From Streptomyces sp. NRRL F-5122 (lineage in GTDB: Bacteria; Actinomycetota; Actinomycetes; Streptomycetales; Streptomycetaceae): a DNA stretch of 13,479 nucleotides. The position numbers and the translations under genes are program-made. Each line of letters begins with the position of its first letter. The stretch's first letter is position 1. The stretch spans positions 1 to 13,479 of the forward strand of contig NZ_LMWH01000312.1 of NCBI RefSeq assembly GCF_001507435.1, in the 5' to 3' direction. Below, piece after piece: positions 2,413-13,479 of the stretch. Below the pieces are notes generated by a model. That model had not been told where the DNA came from, did no database searches, and was given only the letters and a program-made list of their open reading frames with translations.

Positions 2413-3105
2413 TCAGGCGCGGACAGCGTGAGTTGCGGACCTCGTTGGCTCCGTGACGGGCGTGGCTCGCAGCTCCTCGATGACGCTGTCGAGGTGGGCG
2501 CGGGCTGCGGCCTCCGCGGCGTGTCCGTCGCCGGTGACGATCGCCTCGATGATGGCGAGGTGCTGCGGCAGCGACTTGGCGGGGCGGCCCGGGCGCAGGG
2601 CGAGGCGGAACTGGTAGCGGACCATCTGGCCCTTGAGTCGGTCGAGCAGCCCGCCCGCGACCTTCTGGCCGCTCATCTCTGCGATGAGGGCGTGGAGTTC
2701 GCGGTTGAGGGCGGAGTAGGTGTTAAGGTCGCCGTCCGCGACCGCCTCCCGCATGCGGGCGCCGATCTCGCGGAGACCCTCGCGCTGCTCCGCCGAGGCG
2801 TGCTGGGCGGCGCGGCGGGCGCACAAGCCCTCAAGGGCGGCACGGCACTCGGTGATCTGGATGGCTTCTTCGACGGAGACCACGCGGACGCGGGCGCCGC
2901 GGCGCGGCACCAGCTCGACTAGGCCCTCGGCCGCGAGGTCCTGGAGCGCCTCGCGGACGCAGTTGCGGGTCGCGTGGAGGCTCTCAGACAGCTCCTGCTC
3001 GACGAGGCGCTGGCCCGGCACGAGGTCGCCTGCGGAGAGCGCCCGGCGGATCGCCGTACTCACGAGGCGGCGCCCCTCCTGACCGGTCACCCGGTTGTCC
3101 GCCAC
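2413..3105 (-). CDS. GntR-family transcriptional regulator, FadR/FCD type
   Basis: Probable local regulator of the adjacent PDC-catabolism operon. From the GTG at 3105 it is 230 aa, a normal FCD-regulator length. The N-terminal ~70 residues form a winged helix-turn-helix: AIRRALSAGDLVPGQRLVEQELSE, then ATRNCVREALQDLAAEGLVE, then the wing LVPRRGARVRVV. The rest is a mostly helical FCD effector domain (ECRAALEGLCARRAA; later ALNRELHALIAEMSG; QHLAIIEAIVTGDG; ARAHLDSVI). The acidic and His residues in those last three segments are where FCD proteins bind metal or carboxylate ligands. The frame extends to an ATG at 3168, but the GTG at 3105 has a strong GGGAGGA site 6 nt upstream (3112-3118), so I prefer it. 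The gene is divergent from ligU, and the shared spacer carries a palindrome. By family precedent it would be a repressor relieved by a pathway acid; which acid is inference. Confidence 0.88.
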   Translation of the reverse strand: MADNRVTGQEGRRLVSTAIRRALSAGDLVPGQRLVEQELSESLHATRNCVREALQDLAAEGLVELVPRRGARVRVVSVEEAIQITECRAALEGLCARRAAQHASAEQREGLREIGARMREAVADGDLNTYSALNRELHALIAEMSGQKVAGGLLDRLKGQMVRYQFRLALRPGRPAKSLPQHLAIIEAIVTGDGHAAEAAARAHLDSVIEELRATPVTEPTRSATHAVRA

Positions 3106-3183
3106 GCGTCGTCCTCCCGGCTCCGGGGCCCGTCCTCCGGGCCGCATGTCATCGCAGTCTATCCACACTTCGACACGACGACT

Positions 3184-3216
3184 ATTTCGTCGGAACTATT
3201 GTCAACAATTTCGTCG
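3184..3216. promoter_or_regulatory. candidate GntR operator in the divergent spacer
   Basis: The core is ATTGTCAACAAT at 3198-3209, a 5-bp inverted repeat (ATTGT/ACAAT) around two central bases, the size and shape of an FCD-type GntR site. It is bracketed by two direct copies of ATTTCGTCG (3184-3192 and 3208-3216), 24 bp apart. The first copy is also part of an inverted pair CGACGA/TCGTCG at about 3177-3192. The palindrome covers the -35 of the proposed ligU promoter, so binding would block transcription. Confidence 0.55.
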
Positions 3217-3227
3217 ATGGTTATGTT
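3199..3227 (+). promoter_or_regulatory. proposed promoter of the ligU-ligJ-ligK-ligI operon
   Basis: A -35-like TTGTCA (3199-3204) and a -10-like TATGTT (3222-3227) are separated by exactly 17 bp. Transcription would begin near 3234, giving a leader of about 24 nt that contains AGGGGAG (3246-3252), 5 nt before the ligU ATG. The -35 lies within the ATTGT-N2-ACAAT palindrome. On the minus strand the same palindrome reads TTGACA but lacks a convincing -10 at 17 bp; TAGACT (3156-3161) is the only -10-like sequence seen for the regulator. Confidence 0.5.
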
Positions 3228-3257
3228 GACGGCCAGCACCAGCGAAGGGGAGAGCAA

Positions 3258-4430
3258 ATGACGCAACCCACGACGGTCCAACACGTGGACGTGTCCCGGC
3301 CACCGCCACCGGGCGGGCAGACGGCGATCCCCTGCTGGTTCCTACGCGGCGGCACCTCGCGCGGCCCCTTCTTCCGCGCGGCCGACCTGCCCACCGACAC
3401 CACGGGCCGTGACGCGGTCCTGCTGGGCGTGATGGGCTCGCCCGACCCTCGCCAGATCGACGGGCTCGGCGGGGCACACCCGCTCACCAGCAAGGCCGGG
3501 ATCGTGGACCGCAGTGCGCGAGCCGGCATCGACCTGGAGTTCCTGTTCTGCCAGCTGCAGCCCGACAGCGACCTCGTGGACACCACGCCCAACTGCGGCA
3601 ACATGCTCGCCGCCGTCGTCCCGTTCGCCGTCGAATCCGGGCTGCTCACGCCCTCCGGCGACGAGACCACGGCCCGCGTGCTCACACTGAACACCGGGCT
3701 GACCGCCGAGATCACCATCAGGACCCCGCTCGGCCCTGACGGCCGCCGCTTCGTCGCGTACGGGGGCGACGCCAGGATCGACGGCGTCCCCGGCACCGCG
3801 GCGCCCGTCACCATCAACTTCCTCGACACCGCGGGCTCGGTCTGCGCGTCTCTGCTGCCCACCGGGCAGGTGCGGGACCGCGTCGAGGTCGCGGACGTGG
3901 GCCCCGTCGACGTGACCTGCATCGACAACGGCCAGCCCCTGGTGATCGTGGCCGCCGCCGACCTGGGCCGCACCGGCTACGAGACCGCGGCGGAGCTCAA
4001 CACCGACGACGAACTCAAGGCCCGCGTCGAGGACCTTCGGCTGACCTGCGGGAAGCTGATGGGCCTCGGGGACGTGACCGCGAAGAACTACCCCAAGATG
4101 ACGCTCGTCGCGCCGCCCGCGCACGGCGGCACCCTGAGCACCCGCAGCTTCATCCCGCGCGTGTGCCACGAGTCGATCGGCGTGCTCGCGGCCGTCACGG
4201 CGGCCACCGCCTGCGTGCTCGAAGGGAGCGTCGCCCACGCGATCGCCGGTGTTCAGGCGGCGCCGGACGCCGACGTCACGGTCTCCGTCGAGCACCCGTC
4301 CGGCGAGTTCAGCGTGGCGCTGGGCCTCGACCCCGATGACCCGCAGCGGGTCACCAAGTCCGCGCTGCTGCGCACTGCCCGTCTGATCATGGCGGGTGGC
4401 GCCATGGTCCCCAACAAGGAACAGCGATGA
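3258..4430 (+). CDS. ligU: 4-oxalomesaconate tautomerase (PrpF-like, LigU/GalD)
   Basis: Cytoplasmic PrpF-superfamily isomerase of 390 aa. In this pathway the family shifts a double bond of 4-oxalomesaconate to give the substrate that LigJ hydrates. Diagnostic segments are the N-terminal IPCWFLRGGTSRG (residues 24-36), GVMGSPDPRQIDGLGG (57-72), TSKAGIVD with Lys79, the nucleophile-region motif PNCGN (111-115, Cys113), YPKMTLV with Lys280, and the C-terminal EHPSGEF (345-351) and GGAMVP. Lys79 corresponds to the general-base lysine described for LigU. The protein carries about 20 extra N-terminal residues before the conserved IPC motif. It starts at ATG with a strong site 5 nt upstream and its TGA overlaps the ligJ ATG by 4 nt. 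PrpF and methylitaconate isomerases share the fold; the neighbouring ligJ, ligK and ligI favour LigU/GalD. Confidence 0.87.
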   Translation: MTQPTTVQHVDVSRPPPPGGQTAIPCWFLRGGTSRGPFFRAADLPTDTTGRDAVLLGVMGSPDPRQIDGLGGAHPLTSKAGIVDRSARAGIDLEFLFCQLQPDSDLVDTTPNCGNMLAAVVPFAVESGLLTPSGDETTARVLTLNTGLTAEITIRTPLGPDGRRFVAYGGDARIDGVPGTAAPVTINFLDTAGSVCASLLPTGQVRDRVEVADVGPVDVTCIDNGQPLVIVAAADLGRTGYETAAELNTDDELKARVEDLRLTCGKLMGLGDVTAKNYPKMTLVAPPAHGGTLSTRSFIPRVCHESIGVLAAVTAATACVLEGSVAHAIAGVQAAPDADVTVSVEHPSGEFSVALGLDPDDPQRVTKSALLRTARLIMAGGAMVPNKEQR

Positions 4431-5452
4431 TCCTCGACTGCCACGGCCACTACACCACAGCACCGCCCGCGCTCGGCGCCTGGCGGGAGCGGCAGATCGC
4501 CGGGCTCACCGACCCCTCGGCCGTACCGGACGCCGCAGACCTGCGCATCAGCGACGACGACATCCGCGAGAGCATCGAGCGGAACCAGCTGCGGATGATG
4601 GATGAGCGCGGCATCGACGTCACGCTGTTCTCGCCCCGCGCCTCCTTTATGGCCCACCATATCGGTGACTTCACCACCTCCTCCCGTTGGGCCGCTATCT
4701 GCAACGAGCTGTGCGCCCGCGTCGCCACCCTCTACCCGGAGCGCTTCGTGCCCGCCGCGATGCTCCCCCAGTCACCCGGCGTCGACCCGGTCACCTCGGT
4801 GCCCGAGCTCGAACGGTGCGTCAAGGAGTACGGTGCGGTCGCCGTCAACCTCAACCCGGACCCGTCGGGGGGGCACTGGACGACGCCGCCGCTGACCGAC
4901 CGGTCCTGGTACCCGCTGTACGAGAAGCTCGTGGAGTACGACCTCCCGGCGATGGTGCACGTCAGCACCAGCATCAACCCGGCCTTCCACACCACGGGCG
5001 CGCACTACCTCAACGCCGACACGACCGTCTTCATGCAGCTCATCCAGGGCGACCTGTTCAAGGACTTCCCCACGCTGCGCCTGGTGATCCCGCACGGCGG
5101 CGGAGCCGTCCCTTACCACTGGGGCCGCTTCCGCGGCCTCGCGATGGCGCTCAAGAAGCCAGAGCTGGAGGAGCACGTGCTCGGCAACGTCTTCTTCGAC
5201 ACCTGCGTGTACCACCAGCCCGGCATCAACCTGCTGCTCGAGGTCGTGCCCCGCCGCAACGTTCTCTTCGCCTCCGAGATGATCGGCGCCGTCCGGGACA
5301 TCGACCCCTGCTCGGGCCACCACTTCGACGACACCCGCCGCTACATCGAGTCCGCGGGACTGAGCGCCACGGCCCTGGCCGAGATCCAGGAACACAACGT
5401 CCGCGCCGTCTACCCGCATCTCGACACCCTGCTCAGGCAGCAGGGCCGTTGA
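4427..5452 (+). CDS. ligJ: 4-oxalomesaconate hydratase (amidohydrolase superfamily, LigJ)
   Basis: The enzyme adds water to the isomerised oxalomesaconate to form 4-carboxy-4-hydroxy-2-oxoadipate. It is 341 aa and opens MILDCHGHYTTAPPALGAWR, the LigJ signature. The metal-binding HxH is His6/His8. Other barrel ligands are likely His178 (MVHVS) and His223 (IPHGGG), with Glu284 in SEMIG. Many amidohydrolases have an Asp at that last position, and the Glu is a trait of the LigJ branch. Further markers are NLNPDPSGGHW (141-151) and GAHYLNADTT with Tyr194. No signal peptide; cytoplasmic. The start overlaps the ligU stop (ATGA), with AAGGA at 4416-4420 inside ligU. It is unrelated to the GalB-type hydratase, so the operon follows the lig style here. 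Confidence 0.88.
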   Translation: MILDCHGHYTTAPPALGAWRERQIAGLTDPSAVPDAADLRISDDDIRESIERNQLRMMDERGIDVTLFSPRASFMAHHIGDFTTSSRWAAICNELCARVATLYPERFVPAAMLPQSPGVDPVTSVPELERCVKEYGAVAVNLNPDPSGGHWTTPPLTDRSWYPLYEKLVEYDLPAMVHVSTSINPAFHTTGAHYLNADTTVFMQLIQGDLFKDFPTLRLVIPHGGGAVPYHWGRFRGLAMALKKPELEEHVLGNVFFDTCVYHQPGINLLLEVVPRRNVLFASEMIGAVRDIDPCSGHHFDDTRRYIESAGLSATALAEIQEHNVRAVYPHLDTLLRQQGR

Positions 5453-5472
5453 CGCAGAGGGAGCACAGAACC

Positions 5473-6177
5473 ATGTACGAACTGGGAGTCGTCCACCAGG
5501 ACATCAGCCGCGCCTCCCGCACTGACGTCGAGACGCTCACGCCGCTCGGCGTCAGCACCATCCACGAGGCGATGGGCCGCACCGGCCTGATGCGCCCCTA
5601 CATCCGGCCCGTCTACCACGGCGCCGCCTTCTGCGGGACCGCCGTGACCGTGCTGCTCCAGCCCGGGGACAACTGGATGCTGCACGTCGCCGTCGAGCAG
5701 ATCGGACCGGGCGACGTGCTCGTGGCCGCCTGCACCACGGAGAACGAGGACGGCTTCTTCGGCGAGCTGCTCGCCACCTCGGCCCGCGCCAAGGGCGCGG
5801 TCGGCCTGGTCATCGACGGCGGCTGCCGGGACGTGGCCGCGCTGGAGAAGATGGACTTCCCCGTCTTCAGCCGCGCGGTCAACGCGAAGGGCACCGTCAA
5901 GGCAACCCTCGGCTCCGTCAACATCCCCGTCGTCTGTGCGGGCGCGTTGGTGCGCCCAGGGGACGTCGTCGCTGCCGACGCTGACGGCGTCGTTGTCGTG
6001 CCGGCCGAACAGGCCGCCGAGGTCGCGGCCGCCGGCCGCAAGCGGGAGGAGAACGAGGACGGCAAGCGGGAGCGGTTCGCTGCAGGCGAGCTCGGCCTCG
6101 ACATGTACGGTATGCGCGAGCCCCTGCGGGCCGCAGGACTGCGCTACGTCGGCGGCAAGCAGGGAGAACAGGCATGA
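5473..6177 (+). CDS. ligK: 4-carboxy-4-hydroxy-2-oxoadipate aldolase (RraA-like, LigK/GalC)
   Basis: A class II pyruvate aldolase of 234 aa that cleaves 4-carboxy-4-hydroxy-2-oxoadipate to pyruvate and oxaloacetate, and often also 4-hydroxy-4-methyl-2-oxoglutarate. It has the RraA fold. The family motif is seen as GELLATSARAKGAVGLVIDG (97-116) followed by CRD, with Arg119 and Asp120 as the expected substrate-binding Arg and Mg2+/Mn2+-anchoring Asp. GTAVTVLLQPGDNWMLHVAV and PGDVVAADADGVVVVP are also typical. The ATG at 5473 is 20 nt after the ligJ stop with GAGGGAG (5457-5463) in between; the frame is open far upstream through ligJ, but nothing there is real. Its TGA overlaps the ligI ATG by 4 nt. 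RraA-type RNase E inhibitors share the fold, but the C-terminal extension and context support the aldolase. Confidence 0.9.
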   Translation: MYELGVVHQDISRASRTDVETLTPLGVSTIHEAMGRTGLMRPYIRPVYHGAAFCGTAVTVLLQPGDNWMLHVAVEQIGPGDVLVAACTTENEDGFFGELLATSARAKGAVGLVIDGGCRDVAALEKMDFPVFSRAVNAKGTVKATLGSVNIPVVCAGALVRPGDVVAADADGVVVVPAEQAAEVAAAGRKREENEDGKRERFAAGELGLDMYGMREPLRAAGLRYVGGKQGEQA

Positions 6178-7094
6178 GCGGACCGTTCATCAAGACGCCC
6201 GGGTGGCTCGACTGGTACCGGAATCCGTCCGCCCCGGCCTTCACCCTGCCCGAGGGCACCGTCGACGCGCACTGTCACGTATTCGGGCCGGGCGCGGAGT
6301 TCCCCTATGCACCGGAGCGCAAGTACACGCCCTGCGACGCGGGCAAGGACGAGCTGTTCACGCTCCGCGACCACCTCGGCGTCAGCCGCAACGTCATCGT
6401 GCAGGCCACCTGCCACGGCGCCGACAACAGCGCCATGGTCGACGCCGTACGGGCGTCCGGCGGCCGGGCGCGCGGCATCGCGACCGTACGGCCCGACATC
6501 ACCGACGCCGAGCTGGCGGAGCTGAACGCGGCCGGTGTGCGCGGAGTGCGGTTCAACTTCCTGAAACGCCTGGTCAACGCCGCGCCCAAGGAGGATCTCG
6601 CGGCGATCGCCGAGCGCATCGCGCCGCTCGGCTGGCATGTGGTCATCTACTTCGAGGGCGAGGACCTCGCCGACCTCGAAGGCTTCTTCACCGCGCTGCC
6701 CACCCCGCTTGTCGTGGACCACATGGGTCGCCCCGACGTGACGAAGCCTGTGGACGGGCCCGACTTCACGCGGTTCCTGCGGTTCGTGGAGCGCAGCGGC
6801 GTATGGGTCAAGGTGACCTGCCCCGAGCGGCTCACCGTCACGGGCCGCCCCGCCCTCGACGAGGAGCGCGAGCCGTACTCCGACGTGGTGCCCTTCGGCA
6901 GGAAGGTCGTCGAGGAATTCCCGGATTCCGTCCTGTGGGGCACCGACTGGCCGCACCCGAACCTCACGGACCACATGCCGGACGACGGACTGCTGGTCGA
7001 CTACGTGCCCCGGGTGGCCGTAACCGCCGCGATGCGGCAGAAGCTGCTGGTTGACAATCCGATGCGGCTCTACTGGCCCGGCGAAAACGCCTGA
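6174..7094 (+). CDS. ligI: 2-pyrone-4,6-dicarboxylate lactonase (LigI)
   Basis: Amidohydrolase-superfamily lactonase of 306 aa, close to the usual ~300, that hydrolyses PDC to 4-oxalomesaconate in the cytoplasm. It differs from LigJ in having VDAHCHVFGPG (30-40; His33, His35), then YAPERKYTPCDA (45-56), a signature of PDC lactonases. Other active-site elements are GVRGVRFNFLKR (121-132; likely carboxylate-binding Arg/Lys), VVDHMGRPD (His183), CPERL and GTDWPHPN with catalytic Asp258. LigI enzymes work without a bound metal, so the histidines and Asp act directly. The start overlaps the ligK stop, with AGGGAG at 6161-6166. The TGA forms one edge of a 9-bp stem-loop leading into the transporter gene. 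Confidence 0.92.
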   Translation: MSGPFIKTPGWLDWYRNPSAPAFTLPEGTVDAHCHVFGPGAEFPYAPERKYTPCDAGKDELFTLRDHLGVSRNVIVQATCHGADNSAMVDAVRASGGRARGIATVRPDITDAELAELNAAGVRGVRFNFLKRLVNAAPKEDLAAIAERIAPLGWHVVIYFEGEDLADLEGFFTALPTPLVVDHMGRPDVTKPVDGPDFTRFLRFVERSGVWVKVTCPERLTVTGRPALDEEREPYSDVVPFGRKVVEEFPDSVLWGTDWPHPNLTDHMPDDGLLVDYVPRVAVTAAMRQKLLVDNPMRLYWPGENA

Positions 7095-7130
7095 GCCCCT
7101 TCCGCACCCACAACGACGAAAAAGGGGCTC
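7093..7130 (+). promoter_or_regulatory. stem-loop spanning ligI stop and transporter RBS
   Basis: GAGCCCCTT (7093-7101) and AAGGGGCTC (7122-7130) are perfect inverted repeats with a 20-nt loop. The left arm begins inside the ligI TGA (7092-7094). The right arm contains the AAGGGG ribosome binding site of the MFS gene, whose ATG is at 7134. When folded, the site is hidden; a ribosome finishing ligI would open the stem. No T-run follows, so translational coupling or attenuation of transporter expression is more likely than full termination. Confidence 0.5.
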
Positions 7131-7133
7131 CCC

Positions 7134-8489
7134 ATGCTGCACTCCAACGCGAAGAACCGGCTCGACCGGCTACCGATCTCCAGATTCCACAAGATAACCC
7201 TGATGGCGGTGGCCTTCGCCTACTTCTTCGAATTCGCGGACATCAACAGTTTCGCGGTGACGGCACCCCGGCTGATCAAGCTCTGGGGCGTCACCGTGAA
7301 CCAGGTGGCGTACGTCACCTCGCTGTCGTTCGTCTGTATGTTCCTCGGGTCCGTCGTCGCGAGCTGGATGGCCGACAGGTGGGGCCGCAGGACGGCGCTC
7401 AACCTCACCACCGTGTTCTTCAGCGTCTTCTCGCTAGCCTCGGCATTCTCCTGGGACATCGTCTCCCTCGGCGTCTTCCGGGCGCTGACCTCCACGGGCC
7501 TCTCCGCGATGACCGTCGTCGCCGTGATCTACGTCAGCGAACTCTTCCCCTCCGCGCTGCGCGGAAAATTCCAGGCGTACGCGATCGTCATCGGCATCTG
7601 CGGCACACCTGTCACCAATTTCGTCGCGAGCGCCCTCGTCCCGATCAACGACTGGTCATGGCGGTTTGTGTACCTGTGGGGCGCACTCGGCATCGTCTAC
7701 CTCTTCTTCGCGCGACACCTCAAAGAATCTCCCCGCTGGTACGAAAGCAGGGGCGAGCACGCCAAGGCCGACGCAATCCTGACGGAACTCGAAACGCAGA
7801 TCACCGCGGAGAAGGGCCCGCTCCCGTTGCCAGCGCCTCCCTTGGACCCGCCAGTCCTGAAGAAGGCGCCGCTGCGCATCCTATTCCAGAAGAAATACCT
7901 CCTGCCTACCCTGCTGCTCACCGTGGTCTGGGTCACCCAGACCATCGGATTCTTCGGCTATTCCAGCTGGGCTCCGACACTGCTCGCGAAAGAGGGCTTC
8001 AGCGTCGAGAAGTCCGTCTTCTACGTGGCACTCAGCACAGCGGGCGCGCCGCTCGGCTCGTACATCGCTGCCCTCGTCACCGACCGGTTCGAGCGCAAGT
8101 GGTGCCTGGTGGCCTTCGGCGCGATCATCGCCGTGTGCGGCCTGCTGTACGGGCTGACGTTCAACCCGGCCCTGATCATCGTCTTTGGGTTCCTGGTGAA
8201 CCTGTTCGAGCGCGGCTATACGGCGCTCGGGTACGCGTACTCACCCGAGCTGTTCGACACCCACGGCAGGTCACTCGGTACTGGCGTCTCGTACGGCCTT
8301 GGCCGACTCTCCAACGCCGTGGGACCACTGGTCATCGCTGGCTTGTACAACGGCTCGGGCTACAAGAGCGTCTTTTTCTTCATCGCTGGCACCTGGCTGT
8401 TCGGCGCCGTCATCTTGGCTGTCTTCGGCCCCAGAACGAAGCAGACCGTGTTGACGCTGGCCCGGCCGAAGGATCCGGTCAGCGCCTGA
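7134..8489 (+). CDS. MFS transporter, probable aromatic-acid/PDC-type carboxylate importer
   Basis: Integral membrane protein of 451 aa with about 12 hydrophobic segments and a central cytoplasmic loop rich in Pro/Ala/Glu (about 205-245). Family marks are the loop 2-3 motif ADRWGRR (80-86), its second-half counterpart DRFERK (317-322), ELFPSALRG (136-144) and KESPRWYESRG (197-207). Acidic residues Glu33 and Asp36 in the first helix are placed like the proton-coupling acids of organic-acid:H+ symporters. It is the last gene of the operon, 39 nt after ligI, with AAAGGGG 6 nt before its ATG. Since the operon encodes everything from PDC to central metabolites but nothing upstream, uptake of PDC or a similar tricarboxylate is the natural guess. 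Import of gallate or protocatechuate is the alternative. The substrate is inference. Confidence 0.82.
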   Translation: MLHSNAKNRLDRLPISRFHKITLMAVAFAYFFEFADINSFAVTAPRLIKLWGVTVNQVAYVTSLSFVCMFLGSVVASWMADRWGRRTALNLTTVFFSVFSLASAFSWDIVSLGVFRALTSTGLSAMTVVAVIYVSELFPSALRGKFQAYAIVIGICGTPVTNFVASALVPINDWSWRFVYLWGALGIVYLFFARHLKESPRWYESRGEHAKADAILTELETQITAEKGPLPLPAPPLDPPVLKKAPLRILFQKKYLLPTLLLTVVWVTQTIGFFGYSSWAPTLLAKEGFSVEKSVFYVALSTAGAPLGSYIAALVTDRFERKWCLVAFGAIIAVCGLLYGLTFNPALIIVFGFLVNLFERGYTALGYAYSPELFDTHGRSLGTGVSYGLGRLSNAVGPLVIAGLYNGSGYKSVFFFIAGTWLFGAVILAVFGPRTKQTVLTLARPKDPVSA

Positions 8490-8945: not shown

Positions 8946-9822
8946 CGCTGAAGGTCATTGGTTGGTTCGACACAAGGGTGAAGCCCCTGGTAGGCGGGTT
9001 CACGACCAAGATCACCCGGTATCCCTCAGAGGCTTCGCGTGCTTGTCTACCCGTGCGGACTAGACGTGTCCAGTCGGTCCATGTCCTTCCTCGCTGCTCG
9101 TCTGCGTGAACACCGTCGTCGGATCGGGAGCCGTTGGCGCCGGCTCTCGACCGGACGTCAAGCCTTGCTGGTGCTGGCTCATCTGCGTAACGGGACCACG
9201 TACGCCCAGCTCGCAGCAGGTTTCGAGGTCGGGACGAGTACGGTCTACCGCTACATCAGCGAGGCCGTCGACCTGCTGGCCGCACTCGCCCCGACCCTCA
9301 ACGAGGCTGTCCGGGCTGCCTCGGCGAAAGCGTACGTCTTGCTCGACGGGACACTTCTGCCGATCGATCGGATCGCGGCCGACCGGCCCTACTACTCAGG
9401 AAAGCACAAGAAGCACGGCGTGAACGTGCAGGTCATCGCCGATCCGTTCGGTCGGCTCCTATGGGCCTCGCCCGCACTGCCAGGGGCCGTCCACGACATC
9501 CGCGCAGCCCGCGAACACGGCATCATCGATGCCCTCGAACAGGCCCACATCCCCTGCTGGGCAGACAAGGGCTACCAGGGCGCCCGCGGCACAGTCCGGG
9601 TGCCGATCCGTGGCCGATGGGAGGCGCTATCCACCGGTCAGCAGGCCGTGAACCGATCTCAGGCCAAGCTCCGTGCTCTGGTCGAACCAGCCATCGCCGC
9701 CCTCAAGACCTGGCGGCTCCTCCGCAAACTTCGCTGCTCGACCACCCGCATCACAGGCATCGTCCAAGCAATACTCACCCTCCATCACGCCAGCTCAACC
9801 GGAGGTTGAAAACGCCTCAGTG
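8946..9822 (+). mobile_element. IS5-family insertion sequence (ends tentative)
   Basis: The transposase gene is complete. The proposed ends are CGCTGAAGG (8946-8954) and GCCTCAGTG (9814-9822, reverse complement CACTGAGGC), which agree at only 6 of 9 positions. The resulting size of about 0.88 kb is normal for one-gene IS5 relatives. No convincing target duplication was seen, so the ends may be off or the element may be old. Confidence 0.4.
9039..9809 (+). CDS. IS5-family DDE transposase (DDE_Tnp_4 type)
   Basis: Transposase of 256 aa, apparently full length. The N-terminal helix-turn-helix region includes RHRLxx-like basic helices (REHRRRIGSRWRRL), LAHLRNGTTYAQLAAGF and VGTSTVYRYISEAV (64-77). 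The RNase-H-like domain carries LLDGTLLPIDR (Asp103), SGKHKKHGVNVQVIADP, ALPGAVHDIRAAR (Asp153), ADKGYQGA (Asp176) and VEPAIAALKTWRLLRKLRC (Glu216). Thus the DDE residues are all present. The start is a GTG at 9039; the following LVYPCGLDVSS matches the usual beginning of this Streptomyces transposase group, so I prefer it to later ATGs. No frameshift or internal stop. It may still be active. Confidence 0.88.
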   Translation: MLVYPCGLDVSSRSMSFLAARLREHRRRIGSRWRRLSTGRQALLVLAHLRNGTTYAQLAAGFEVGTSTVYRYISEAVDLLAALAPTLNEAVRAASAKAYVLLDGTLLPIDRIAADRPYYSGKHKKHGVNVQVIADPFGRLLWASPALPGAVHDIRAAREHGIIDALEQAHIPCWADKGYQGARGTVRVPIRGRWEALSTGQQAVNRSQAKLRALVEPAIAALKTWRLLRKLRCSTTRITGIVQAILTLHHASSTGG

Positions 9823-10424: not shown

Positions 10425-10830
10425 CCTCGGCCGCCACGAACGGTGGCAGGAGTGGCGAGGCGACGCCGGCCGCCCCGCCGGGGCGGCCGGTCCTGGCGGC
10501 ACCGATGCCTCGCGCCGCTGCGGTCTGCCCCTTATCGTGCGAGGAGTCGCCCCTGCCCACCGCCGTCACCCTCACCGGCGCTCTCACGATCGAGATGCTC
10601 TCCGGCCTCGTGCCCGCCTGCGCTAGCCAGCGGTGCGAAGACGCCGGCGTCGGGAGACGTCGCGAAGGTCTGCGCGTAGTTGATGGCGGTCTGCAGCGCA
10701 TCCTTCAGCGTGGCGATGTCCCGTGCGACCTGGGCGACGAGGGTGCCGCCCTGGAGGGCCGCAAGGAGCAGCGTGGCCAGTTGTGTGGGATCCCCCTCGG
10801 CGCTGATGCGACCGACGACGGGGGCGCGTC
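10425..10830 (-). repeat. segmental repeat copy A (TetR 3' region)
   Basis: This ~400-bp stretch resembles 12940-13330 in the same orientation. The shared parts are the TetR C-terminal codons, a less conserved downstream spacer, and a patch near GGAGTGGCGAGG/GGAGTAGCGAGG and CCGGGGC...GGTCCTGG. Copy A is cut off at both sides, by the IS110 remnant on the left and unrelated sequence on the right. Confidence 0.6.
10655..10813 (-). pseudogene. truncated TetR-family regulator, C-terminal fragment
   Basis: The minus strand reads GRISAEGDPTQLATLLLAAL, QGGTLVAQVARDIATLKDAL, QTAINYAQTFATS. This is the last 53-residue block of a YxaF/LmrA-type TetR ligand domain. It matches the regulator at the right edge at about 41 of 53 residues. 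No DNA-binding domain or CxLGSLA motif precedes it, and the stop codon found after FATSQAS in the other copy is lost. It is a decayed paralogue or a duplicate, not a working regulator. Confidence 0.7.
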
Positions 10831-11172
10831 GCACCTGCGAGGAGTGCGGCAGGGGCCGTAAGGGCTCCTGTGCGGGCCGTGTTCCGTGTACTGGGAGCGG
10901 GCGGAGAGAGCGCGGCAGCGACTACTGGCGCGTACGTTCGTGGGCCGCGGTGCAGTGAAGGTTGGTCGCGTCAGTGTGTGTCGTGTCAGACGGCGTTCGA
11001 CGCGAAGTAGAAGCGGTGCTGGGCGGTGAGTCAGCCCGGTTCGAGTGGCCGTGCTCGTCGCCGCATGGGGAGGTTCTCTTCGACACGCTTCTGAATCTGG
11101 GTGTCCCCGGGCCACATGCCTTGAACGTAGCCAAGGCTGGCGACACTGGTACCAAGTAGGTACCATTGAGGG
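10831..11172. other. intergenic, no firm gene
   Basis: A GTG-started plus-strand frame at 10962-11159 (65 aa) is open but has no recognisable domain and ends inside the toxin-antitoxin promoter. I do not accept it as a gene. The right end carries the GGTACCA repeats and the promoter of the toxin-antitoxin pair. Confidence 0.4.
11147..11172 (+). promoter_or_regulatory. toxin-antitoxin operator and likely leaderless promoter
   Basis: Two identical GGTACCA copies (11148-11154 and 11159-11165) are 11 bp apart, one helical turn. Each contains the self-complementary GGTACC. The second overlaps a TANNNT -10 hexamer, TACCAT (11161-11166), whose expected start point falls on or next to the antitoxin ATG at 11173. 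The GAGGG just before the ATG is too close to act as a ribosome site. Both facts fit a leaderless mRNA repressed by its own antitoxin. No good -35 was found. Confidence 0.5.
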
Positions 11173-12939: not shown

Positions 12940-13330
12940 CCGTGGTGACCTCCGCCGCCACGAGCAGCCGCAGGAGTAGCGAGGCAATGCCGTTCGTCCC
13001 ACCGGGGCCGATGGCTGGTCCTGGTCAGCCGGCGACCCTGCGTCGCCCTCGCCCGCCCTATCGCGCGAGGAGCCGTCCATGCTCACGGCGGACGCTCTCA
13101 CGGTCGGGATGCCCTCGGTCTCGTGCACGCCACTGCCAGCGTGCGGGGCTATGACGCTTGGGACGTTGCGAAGGTCTGCAGGTAGTCGATGGCTGTCTGC
13201 AGCGCATCTTTCAGCGGAGTGACGTTCCGTGCAACCTGGGCAAGGAGTGTGCCGCCCTGGAAGGCGGCAAGGAGCAGGTTGGCCAGCCGTGCGGGGTCTG
13301 CCTCGGCGCTGATGCGGCCGAGTTGCTGCA
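12940..13330 (-). repeat. segmental repeat copy B (TetR 3' region)
   Basis: Counterpart of 10425-10830 in the same orientation. It includes the 3' end of the TetR gene and about 200 bp downstream of it. The coding part is best conserved; the downstream part aligns in patches such as GCAGGAGTAGCGAGGC and GGTCCTGG. The two copies bracket the toxin-antitoxin pair. Confidence 0.6.
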
Positions 13331-13478
13331 TGCGCTCGATTCCCTCGCGGAAGGTGTCCCTCCACTGGTCGAACGCATTTGCGAGCTGGTCGTGGACGTC
13401 GAGGTCCGTCTTGACGATCTCGCTCGCCAGGGAGCCGAGGCTGCAGCCTTCCTGGTAGACGTGCTCGTAGCCGATGTA
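13149..13478 (-). CDS. TetR-family regulator, YxaF/LmrA type (5' end outside window)
   Basis: Only the C-terminal 109 residues are present; the DNA-binding half lies beyond the right edge. The visible part begins YIGYEHVYQEGCSLGSLASE. The GCxLGSLA motif is typical of the YxaF/LmrA group of TetR ligand domains. Then come the helices DQLANAFDQWRDTFREGIER, MQQLGRISAEADPARLANLL and LAAFQGGTLLAQVARNVTPL, ending QTFATSQAS and TAG. Members usually repress a divergent or neighbouring exporter or oxidoreductase in response to small hydrophobic molecules; the partner gene is not visible here. No disruption is seen in the part present. Confidence 0.85.
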   Translation of the reverse strand, partial: YIGYEHVYQEGCSLGSLASEIVKTDLDVHDQLANAFDQWRDTFREGIERMQQLGRISAEADPARLANLLLAAFQGGTLLAQVARNVTPLKDALQTAIDYLQTFATSQAS

Positions 13479-13479
13479 G

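Follow-up and report, generated by a model that had tools for sequence, protein, structure and literature searches.

An operon of Streptomyces sp. NRRL F-5122 proposed to take up and break down 2-pyrone-4,6-dicarboxylate

What use does a bacterium have for the lower part of a protocatechuate 4,5-cleavage pathway when no gene for opening the ring stands beside it? The question is raised by contig C311 (NZ_LMWH01000312.1) of Streptomyces sp. NRRL F-5122, whose genome comprises 10.16 Mb in 311 contigs and is 99.99% complete. The contig was analysed over its entire 13,479 bases, and this whole stretch is referred to as the window. It carries an operon on the plus strand (3258-8489) with the gene order ligU-ligJ-ligK-ligI-MFS, the last gene encoding a transporter of the major facilitator superfamily, and a divergent gene for an FCD-type regulator. 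Compared with the protocatechuate 4,5-cleavage operons lig, pmd and pcm, LigI, LigJ and LigK are present, and the ring-cleaving dioxygenase (LigAB/PcmA) and LigC were not detected. 2-Pyrone-4,6-dicarboxylate (PDC), the predicted substrate of LigI, is usually regarded as an internal intermediate and as a polymer building block. A preliminary description of this DNA proposed that the operon takes up and burns PDC released by other organisms during lignin breakdown. We find this to be the best-supported reading, with a probability of roughly 0.6 that the operon suffices, as a self-contained unit, for taking up and breaking down PDC, and possibly 4-oxalomesaconate (OMA) too; this reading has gained comparative evidence.

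All six genes of the preliminary description were found at their places. LigU (3258-4430, plus strand), a predicted LigU/GalD-type OMA tautomerase, scores above the NCBIfam cut-off for that function (NF033377, 495 vs 440 bits) and matches 6p3j with 368 bits. LigK (5473-6177, plus), of the LigK/PcmE type, is likewise above the cut-off for 4-carboxy-4-hydroxy-2-oxoadipate (CHA) aldolase (TIGR02798, 374 vs 304.5 bits; 3noj, 251 bits). LigJ (4427-5452, plus), an Amidohydro_2 protein, has no NCBIfam match; it aligns over its full length with the OMA hydratase 2gwg (571.7 bits over residues 1-341) and with the solved LigJ entry 6dxq (475 bits). The three nearest solved sequences to LigI (6174-7094, plus) are PDC hydrolases (350-354 bits; 4d8l, 354 bits), and its sole NCBIfam match is the 4-sulfomuconolactone hydrolase family NF042924, at 224 bits far under the cut-off of 500. 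LigI sequences were checked for ten residues that we take to form the active site of the SYK-6 enzyme: all ten are present in the window LigI, and they are invariant in 56/56 MFS-linked and 55/55 dioxygenase-linked LigI rows. By relationship and active-site residues, the LigI homologue is a predicted PDC hydrolase. The MFS protein (7134-8489, plus) is above the cut-off for MFS_1 (PF07690); it is related to the AAHS family (TIGR00895) yet under its cut-off (216.8 vs 418.55 bits), and its closest solved relatives are distant (best 55 bits). It is proposed as a PDC transporter from its linkage to LigI only. The genes are tightly packed, with spacings of -4, 20, -4 and 39 bases from ligU to MFS (LigU/LigJ and LigK/LigI overlap by 4), and GC at the third codon position ranges from 0.87 to 0.94.

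If these assignments hold, the MFS protein would import external PDC, LigI would open the pyrone to give OMA, LigU would tautomerise OMA, LigJ would hydrate the tautomer to CHA, and LigK would cleave CHA to pyruvate and oxaloacetate, the four enzymatic steps being assigned from homology. The FCD protein would repress the operon through a TTGTnnACAA palindrome, whose conservation is described below, until a pathway intermediate binds. Most of the PDC would come from neighbouring cells that lose it in the course of 4,5-type catabolism. Such an external supply is realistic, as wild-type Comamonas testosteroni KF-1 growing on 4-hydroxybenzoate is reported to release 0.46 mmol PDC per g dry weight per hour (PMC10154247).

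The missing upper pathway was sought in the rest of the genome, and the gap noticed in the preliminary description extends to it: neither a LigAB/DesB-type dioxygenase nor LigC was detected in the window or elsewhere in the genome. The protocatechuate 4,5-dioxygenase of Arthrobacter keyseri (PcmA) as query gave zero matches at E 1e-3, and LigC as query found only Gfo/Idh proteins, with matches that are weak and partial (best E 3e-16). The same searches in the pcm-carrying control genomes G030 and G031 returned the dioxygenase at 72-91% and LigC at 69-86%. The single PF02900 (LigB-family) match in the genome resembles a DOPA dioxygenase, its only NCBIfam match being 4,5-DOPA dioxygenase at 180 bits (cut-off 233). 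These searches led us to reject a conventional LigAB/DesB gene at another place in the genome as the source of PDC. So was a VOC (type I extradiol) dioxygenase that adjoins ligU and ligK in relatives, for which the genome gave 0 matches at E 1e-3. As the preliminary description stated, Streptomyces normally channel protocatechuate through the beta-ketoadipate route, and the genome has the entry enzyme PcaH (C258:352-1023). Since PcaHG reportedly converts gallate to PDC, the absence of LigAB and LigC is no proof that the PDC is external.

Relatives of the window LigI were taken from the genome_contigs collection (the best 80 of 581 were kept) and from a same-genus sample of 246 genomes, our own included (thresholds E 1e-90 for LigI, E 1e-100 for VOC, 1e-60 for PcmA and 1e-80 for PcaH). 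Gene maps are based on tblastn rows because the gene caller sometimes picked the antisense frame; matches covering less than 40% of the query were dropped from the neighbourhood scans, and the same-genus loci L102-L130 span only about 1.5 kb on each side of LigI. Among the best 80 of the 581 relatives, 29 actinobacterial loci (L002-L028, L032 and L038) are without a pcm-type dioxygenase beside LigI, and in 27 of these the same MFS gene (68-81% identical) directly follows LigI; the exceptions are L010, which stops at the contig edge 10 bases past LigI, and L011, which lacks the MFS gene. LigI is present in 35 of the 246 same-genus genomes, 7 of which have a pcm-type dioxygenase, and the next gene in the 29 same-genus loci fetched is MFS (25) or PcmA (4). 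The LigI-MFS pair was likewise found in Arthrobacter, Pseudarthrobacter, Amycolatopsis, Nocardia and Actinomycetospora. The operon is therefore not unique: 28 of the 246 genomes, our own included, have LigI without a pcm-type dioxygenase, and the pair extends to these other genera. The LigI of same-genus genome G076 is identical to that of Streptomyces sulfonofaciens (L008).

A maximum-likelihood tree of 116 LigI rows (109 different) splits them 58/58 with support of 100/98. One group holds 56 MFS-linked sequences and 2 with neither partner, the other 55 dioxygenase (PcmA)-linked sequences and 3 with neither; of the five without a partner (L010, L011, L040, L070 and L081), all except L010 continue beyond LigI. 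Because the tree divides in this way and none of 115 loci has both the MFS and the PcmA gene beside LigI, the LigI that accompanies the MFS protein constitutes a separate branch.

Some of these relatives carry the VOC dioxygenase gene together with ligU and ligK homologues (L012:2940-3896, L014:5895-6959, L087:9104-10123 and L096:11581-12537). Such loci mostly have the order FCD-ligK2-ligU2-VOC, and the VOC gene was found in 57 of the 246 same-genus genomes. The enzyme may carry out gallate-type ring cleavage while being unrelated to LigAB/GalA; no title in the part of the literature surveyed names a gallate-type VOC ring-cleaving enzyme of this kind. In 7 of 10 loci the VOC gene has an AAHS-type transporter gene, distinct from the window-type MFS, in its vicinity, so the LigI-linked MFS protein is probably not the aromatic-acid importer of the VOC loci.

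The occurrence of the VOC gene varies with the arrangement of ligI. We call a locus type A when ligI has its own ligK beside it, as in the window and in strains such as Streptomyces sulfonofaciens JCM 5069 and Arthrobacter sp. Soil764, and type B when it consists of ligJ-ligI-MFS or of ligI-MFS alone; type and VOC labels were assigned by hand. Six genomes reached twice were counted once (G060=G025, G232=G026, G063=G018, G045=G016, G076=G007 and G254=G017), G009 (L010) was counted as type A, as its MFS gene would lie off the contig, and G010 (L011) stands outside the count. A close VOC gene (at least 62% identity; Arthrobacter genomes scored as without it show 30-34% matches) is present in 2 of 19 type A and 28 of 31 type B genomes (Fisher p = 1.6e-8, shared ancestry being ignored), and within Streptomyces in 1/13 and 21/24, respectively (p = 2.8e-6, with the same disregard of ancestry). 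We read this as LigI and MFS forming a constant uptake-and-hydrolysis pair, for which the lower enzymes would be encoded in the same operon or else in the VOC operon. Among the 19 type A genomes, five (G008, G052, G058, G103 and G276) have neither a close VOC gene nor PcaH above threshold. Their LigB-family matches are DOPA-dioxygenase-like (48-85% to the one in our genome), although one of the two in G058 seems, by eye, MhpB-like from its neighbours. Internal PDC in these five genomes is unexplained by any tested route.

The divergent GntR/FCD-family regulator gene (2413-3168, minus strand; start codon uncertain) encodes both expected domains above cut-off (PF00392, 55.6 bits; PF07729, 106.5 bits). 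Between it and the operon lies a putative operator palindrome, TTGTCAACAA (3199-3208), inside the perfect 12-mer ATTGTCAACAAT (3198-3209). Allowing up to two mismatches, the 12-mer has 3 matches in the window, two of them the two strands of the 3198-3209 site, against 0.14 expected. The motif TTGTnnACAA is present in the gap between regulator and operon in 17/17 type A loci examined, as TTGTCAACAA in 15 and TTGTAAACAA in 2; the scan covered all but two of the 19 type A genomes (G083 is known only as a short locus). The background is 58 sites in 2.24 Mb of all fetched loci, operon sites included. L014 (G013), outside the 17-locus scan, also shows such sites, and in Amycolatopsis L012 and L020 the motif precedes both the VOC operon and ligJ-ligI-MFS, which are therefore probably co-regulated there.

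Other loci are equipped differently. In ten loci (L013, L017, L019, L021, L022, L024, L025, L027, L028 and L136) a unit of TAXI binding protein, histidine kinase and response regulator is divergent from ligJ-ligI-MFS or ligI-MFS; these are 9 of the 29 loci among the best 80 relatives and 1 of 11 further loci. TTGTnnACAA was found in none of these ten, and it precedes ligJ or ligI in 8 of the 9 other type B loci of the best 80. The TAXI proteins are apparently exported: by eye, a stretch like a twin-arginine export signal is present in 8 of 9 N-termini inspected, L013 being the exception, and in the kinase of L013 (S. hokutonensis) two hydrophobic segments, judged by eye and hydropathy, flank a likely outside domain. 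As these sensor units face the LigI-MFS pair and have an apparently exported binding protein, an extracellular signal is implied. From all this one may go further and regard LigI and MFS as a module by which soil actinobacteria scavenge PDC and nothing else, with a LigI branch distinct from the others, control by a cytoplasmic FCD repressor or an extracytoplasmic TAXI sensor-kinase, and the remaining pathway enzymes taken from the module's own or a VOC operon; we consider the chances of this wider proposal to be evenly balanced.

Several observations weigh against PDC uptake from outside. The Sinomonas LigI of L011 belongs to the MFS-linked group, yet the MFS gene is absent; the MFS protein is below the AAHS cut-off and the direction of transport cannot be read from its sequence; and the Fisher tests take no account of shared ancestry. 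Ring cleavage is also not far away in some relatives. G007 and G123, both of type A, possess a separate gene for a LigB-type dioxygenase, and among same-genus genomes with a non-pcm LigI such genes (4/28 vs 4/211 of the LigI-negative genomes, p = 0.008) and the VOC gene (15/28 vs 42/211, p = 2.7e-4) are both enriched. Because the motif is common to the VOC operon, the module of L012 and L020 may serve ring cleavage. The genome of our own strain has a second ligJ-ligK locus with oxygenase-type genes, and PcaH, which might supply PDC from gallate inside the cell, is present in 24 of the 28 non-pcm LigI genomes. This last point leads to the chief rival, in which the cell's own PcaGH turns gallate (derived from tannins, or from syringate through VanAB) into PDC or OMA, the operon clears the product and the MFS protein imports gallate or another aromatic acid. 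The chemistry has been reported: PcaHG of P. putida converts gallate to PDC, with small amounts in A. baylyi (PMC12481942), and VanAB of Streptomyces NL15-2K converts syringate to 3-O-methylgallate and gallate (PMC9867520). As PcaHG acts on gallate and VanAB yields it, our strain, which has PcaH, could make PDC itself. PcaH is also less common in LigI-negative genomes (127/211, p = 0.011) and occurs in 0/7 pcm genomes (p = 0.001 vs the rest). However, 4 of the 28 non-pcm LigI genomes and G008 are without PcaH above threshold, another AAHS-type gene is at hand in 7 of 10 VOC loci, and the only TTGTnnACAA in the 15 kb around our pcaH is 12 kb away (the contig begins 351 bases before the pcaH match). 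The TAXI units, moreover, imply a signal from outside. We regard this rival as rather unlikely. Internal and external sources are not mutually exclusive, and the PcaH-free genomes and TAXI units argue that the internal one is not the whole story.

The remaining alternatives are weaker still. An unrecognised, co-regulated dioxygenase, such as a double-cupin protein or a member of another family, might yield OMA or PDC. The second ligJ-ligK locus is where such a partner might hide: at C277:157000-176000 (L086) the ligJ-ligK pair (58% and 56% identical to the window's) is accompanied by genes for a 4,5-dihydroxyphthalate decarboxylase-like protein, an alcohol dehydrogenase, a Rieske oxygenase, a reductase and a double-cupin protein, and in Arthrobacter globiformis (L014) a VOC dioxygenase gene does stand between the FCD gene and ligU of an operon that is otherwise like the window's. 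But L086 has its own ligJ and ligK and looks like a cluster of the phthalate type equipped with separate lower enzymes, its 19 kb are devoid of TTGTnnACAA, and the VOC query found nothing in our genome, which makes this explanation improbable. That the LigI homologue hydrolyses some other lactone and the MFS protein carries another acid is suggested by the 4-sulfomuconolactone hydrolase match; in view of the PDC hydrolases nearest to it, the ten residues kept across both LigI groups, and the ligJ, ligK and usually ligU genes beside it in type A loci, we consider a different substrate very unlikely. Least probable of all is export, with the MFS protein discharging an overflow intermediate and the operon acting as a detoxification unit. 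The undecidable direction of the carrier would allow it, but the TAXI units hint that ligands are sensed outside the cell, and an exporter would waste carbon when the pathway next to it runs all the way to pyruvate and oxaloacetate.

The proposed PDC uptake unit has partial counterparts in known systems. The pcm operon of Arthrobacter keyseri 12B (plasmid pRE1, NZ_AF331043; L083), also from an actinobacterium, has LigJ, LigK and LigI in the same order, with LigI about 70% identical to that of the window. Unlike the window, it continues after LigI with a fused protocatechuate 4,5-dioxygenase and a Gfo/Idh (LigC-like) gene and has a LysR regulator, and it lacks the MFS, FCD regulator and LigU genes of the window. 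The preliminary description found a 4,5-type lower pathway notable in an actinobacterium; it was already known from this operon and from P. phenanthrenivorans (PMC8431788). The lig system of Sphingobium SYK-6 and the pmd system of Comamonas share the chemistry of LigI, LigU, LigJ and LigK from PDC or OMA to pyruvate and oxaloacetate, but make their own PDC with LigAB/PmdAB and LigC/PmdC. In Pseudomonas putida KT2440 (galTAP/galBCD; PMC12314914), OMA is converted by GalD, GalB and GalC to pyruvate and oxaloacetate, and a transporter, GalT, is linked; this system differs in having the gallate dioxygenase GalA and the LysR regulator GalR, and no LigI is named in the text consulted. The FCD-ligK-ligU-VOC operons (L012, L087, L089 and L098) share with the window LigU and LigK homologues (46% and 53% identical in L012), an FCD regulator and, in all except L087, the palindrome motif. 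They differ in the VOC dioxygenase, in a different, AAHS-type transporter that most of them have, and in having LigI outside the operon. No PDC transporter or PDC-only operon was found in the literature searched, most subscription papers lying outside the search, and the available part of a Streptomyces lignin paper yielded nothing on LigI. A search of the literature on TAXI proteins and kinases likewise brought up nothing of use here. A bisphenol A community study was considered as support for cross-feeding on PDC and set aside, as the part available does not show PDC as a traded substrate.

Streptomyces with this operon probably eat PDC as a by-product released by other microbes. If the MFS protein does import PDC, this would account for lower-pathway genes without ring cleavage in many actinobacteria, make a transporter and a sensor available for engineering, and render cross-feeding on PDC in lignin decay directly testable. 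Should LigI and MFS be a scavenging module in general, PDC would be a traded public good of lignin decay.

A few minor observations remain. The separate LigB-type genes (L092:5852-6700, L091, L093 and L099) are 51-54% identical to PcmA and lie apart from the ligI operon; they were seen in 8 of the 246 same-genus genomes and one Amycolatopsis, with a ligK homologue nearby in L092 and L093. L090 and L094 have a ligJ-ligK pair with flanking genes of the same sizes as in L086. In the window, an IS5-family transposase gene (9039-9809) is located about 550 bases 3' of the operon, and the patchy occurrence of the operon would fit mobility. Further along, the right part of the contig appears decayed by eye, and two similar short frames (10532-10834 and 13149-13479, minus strand) resemble C-terminal pieces of a TetR-type regulator.

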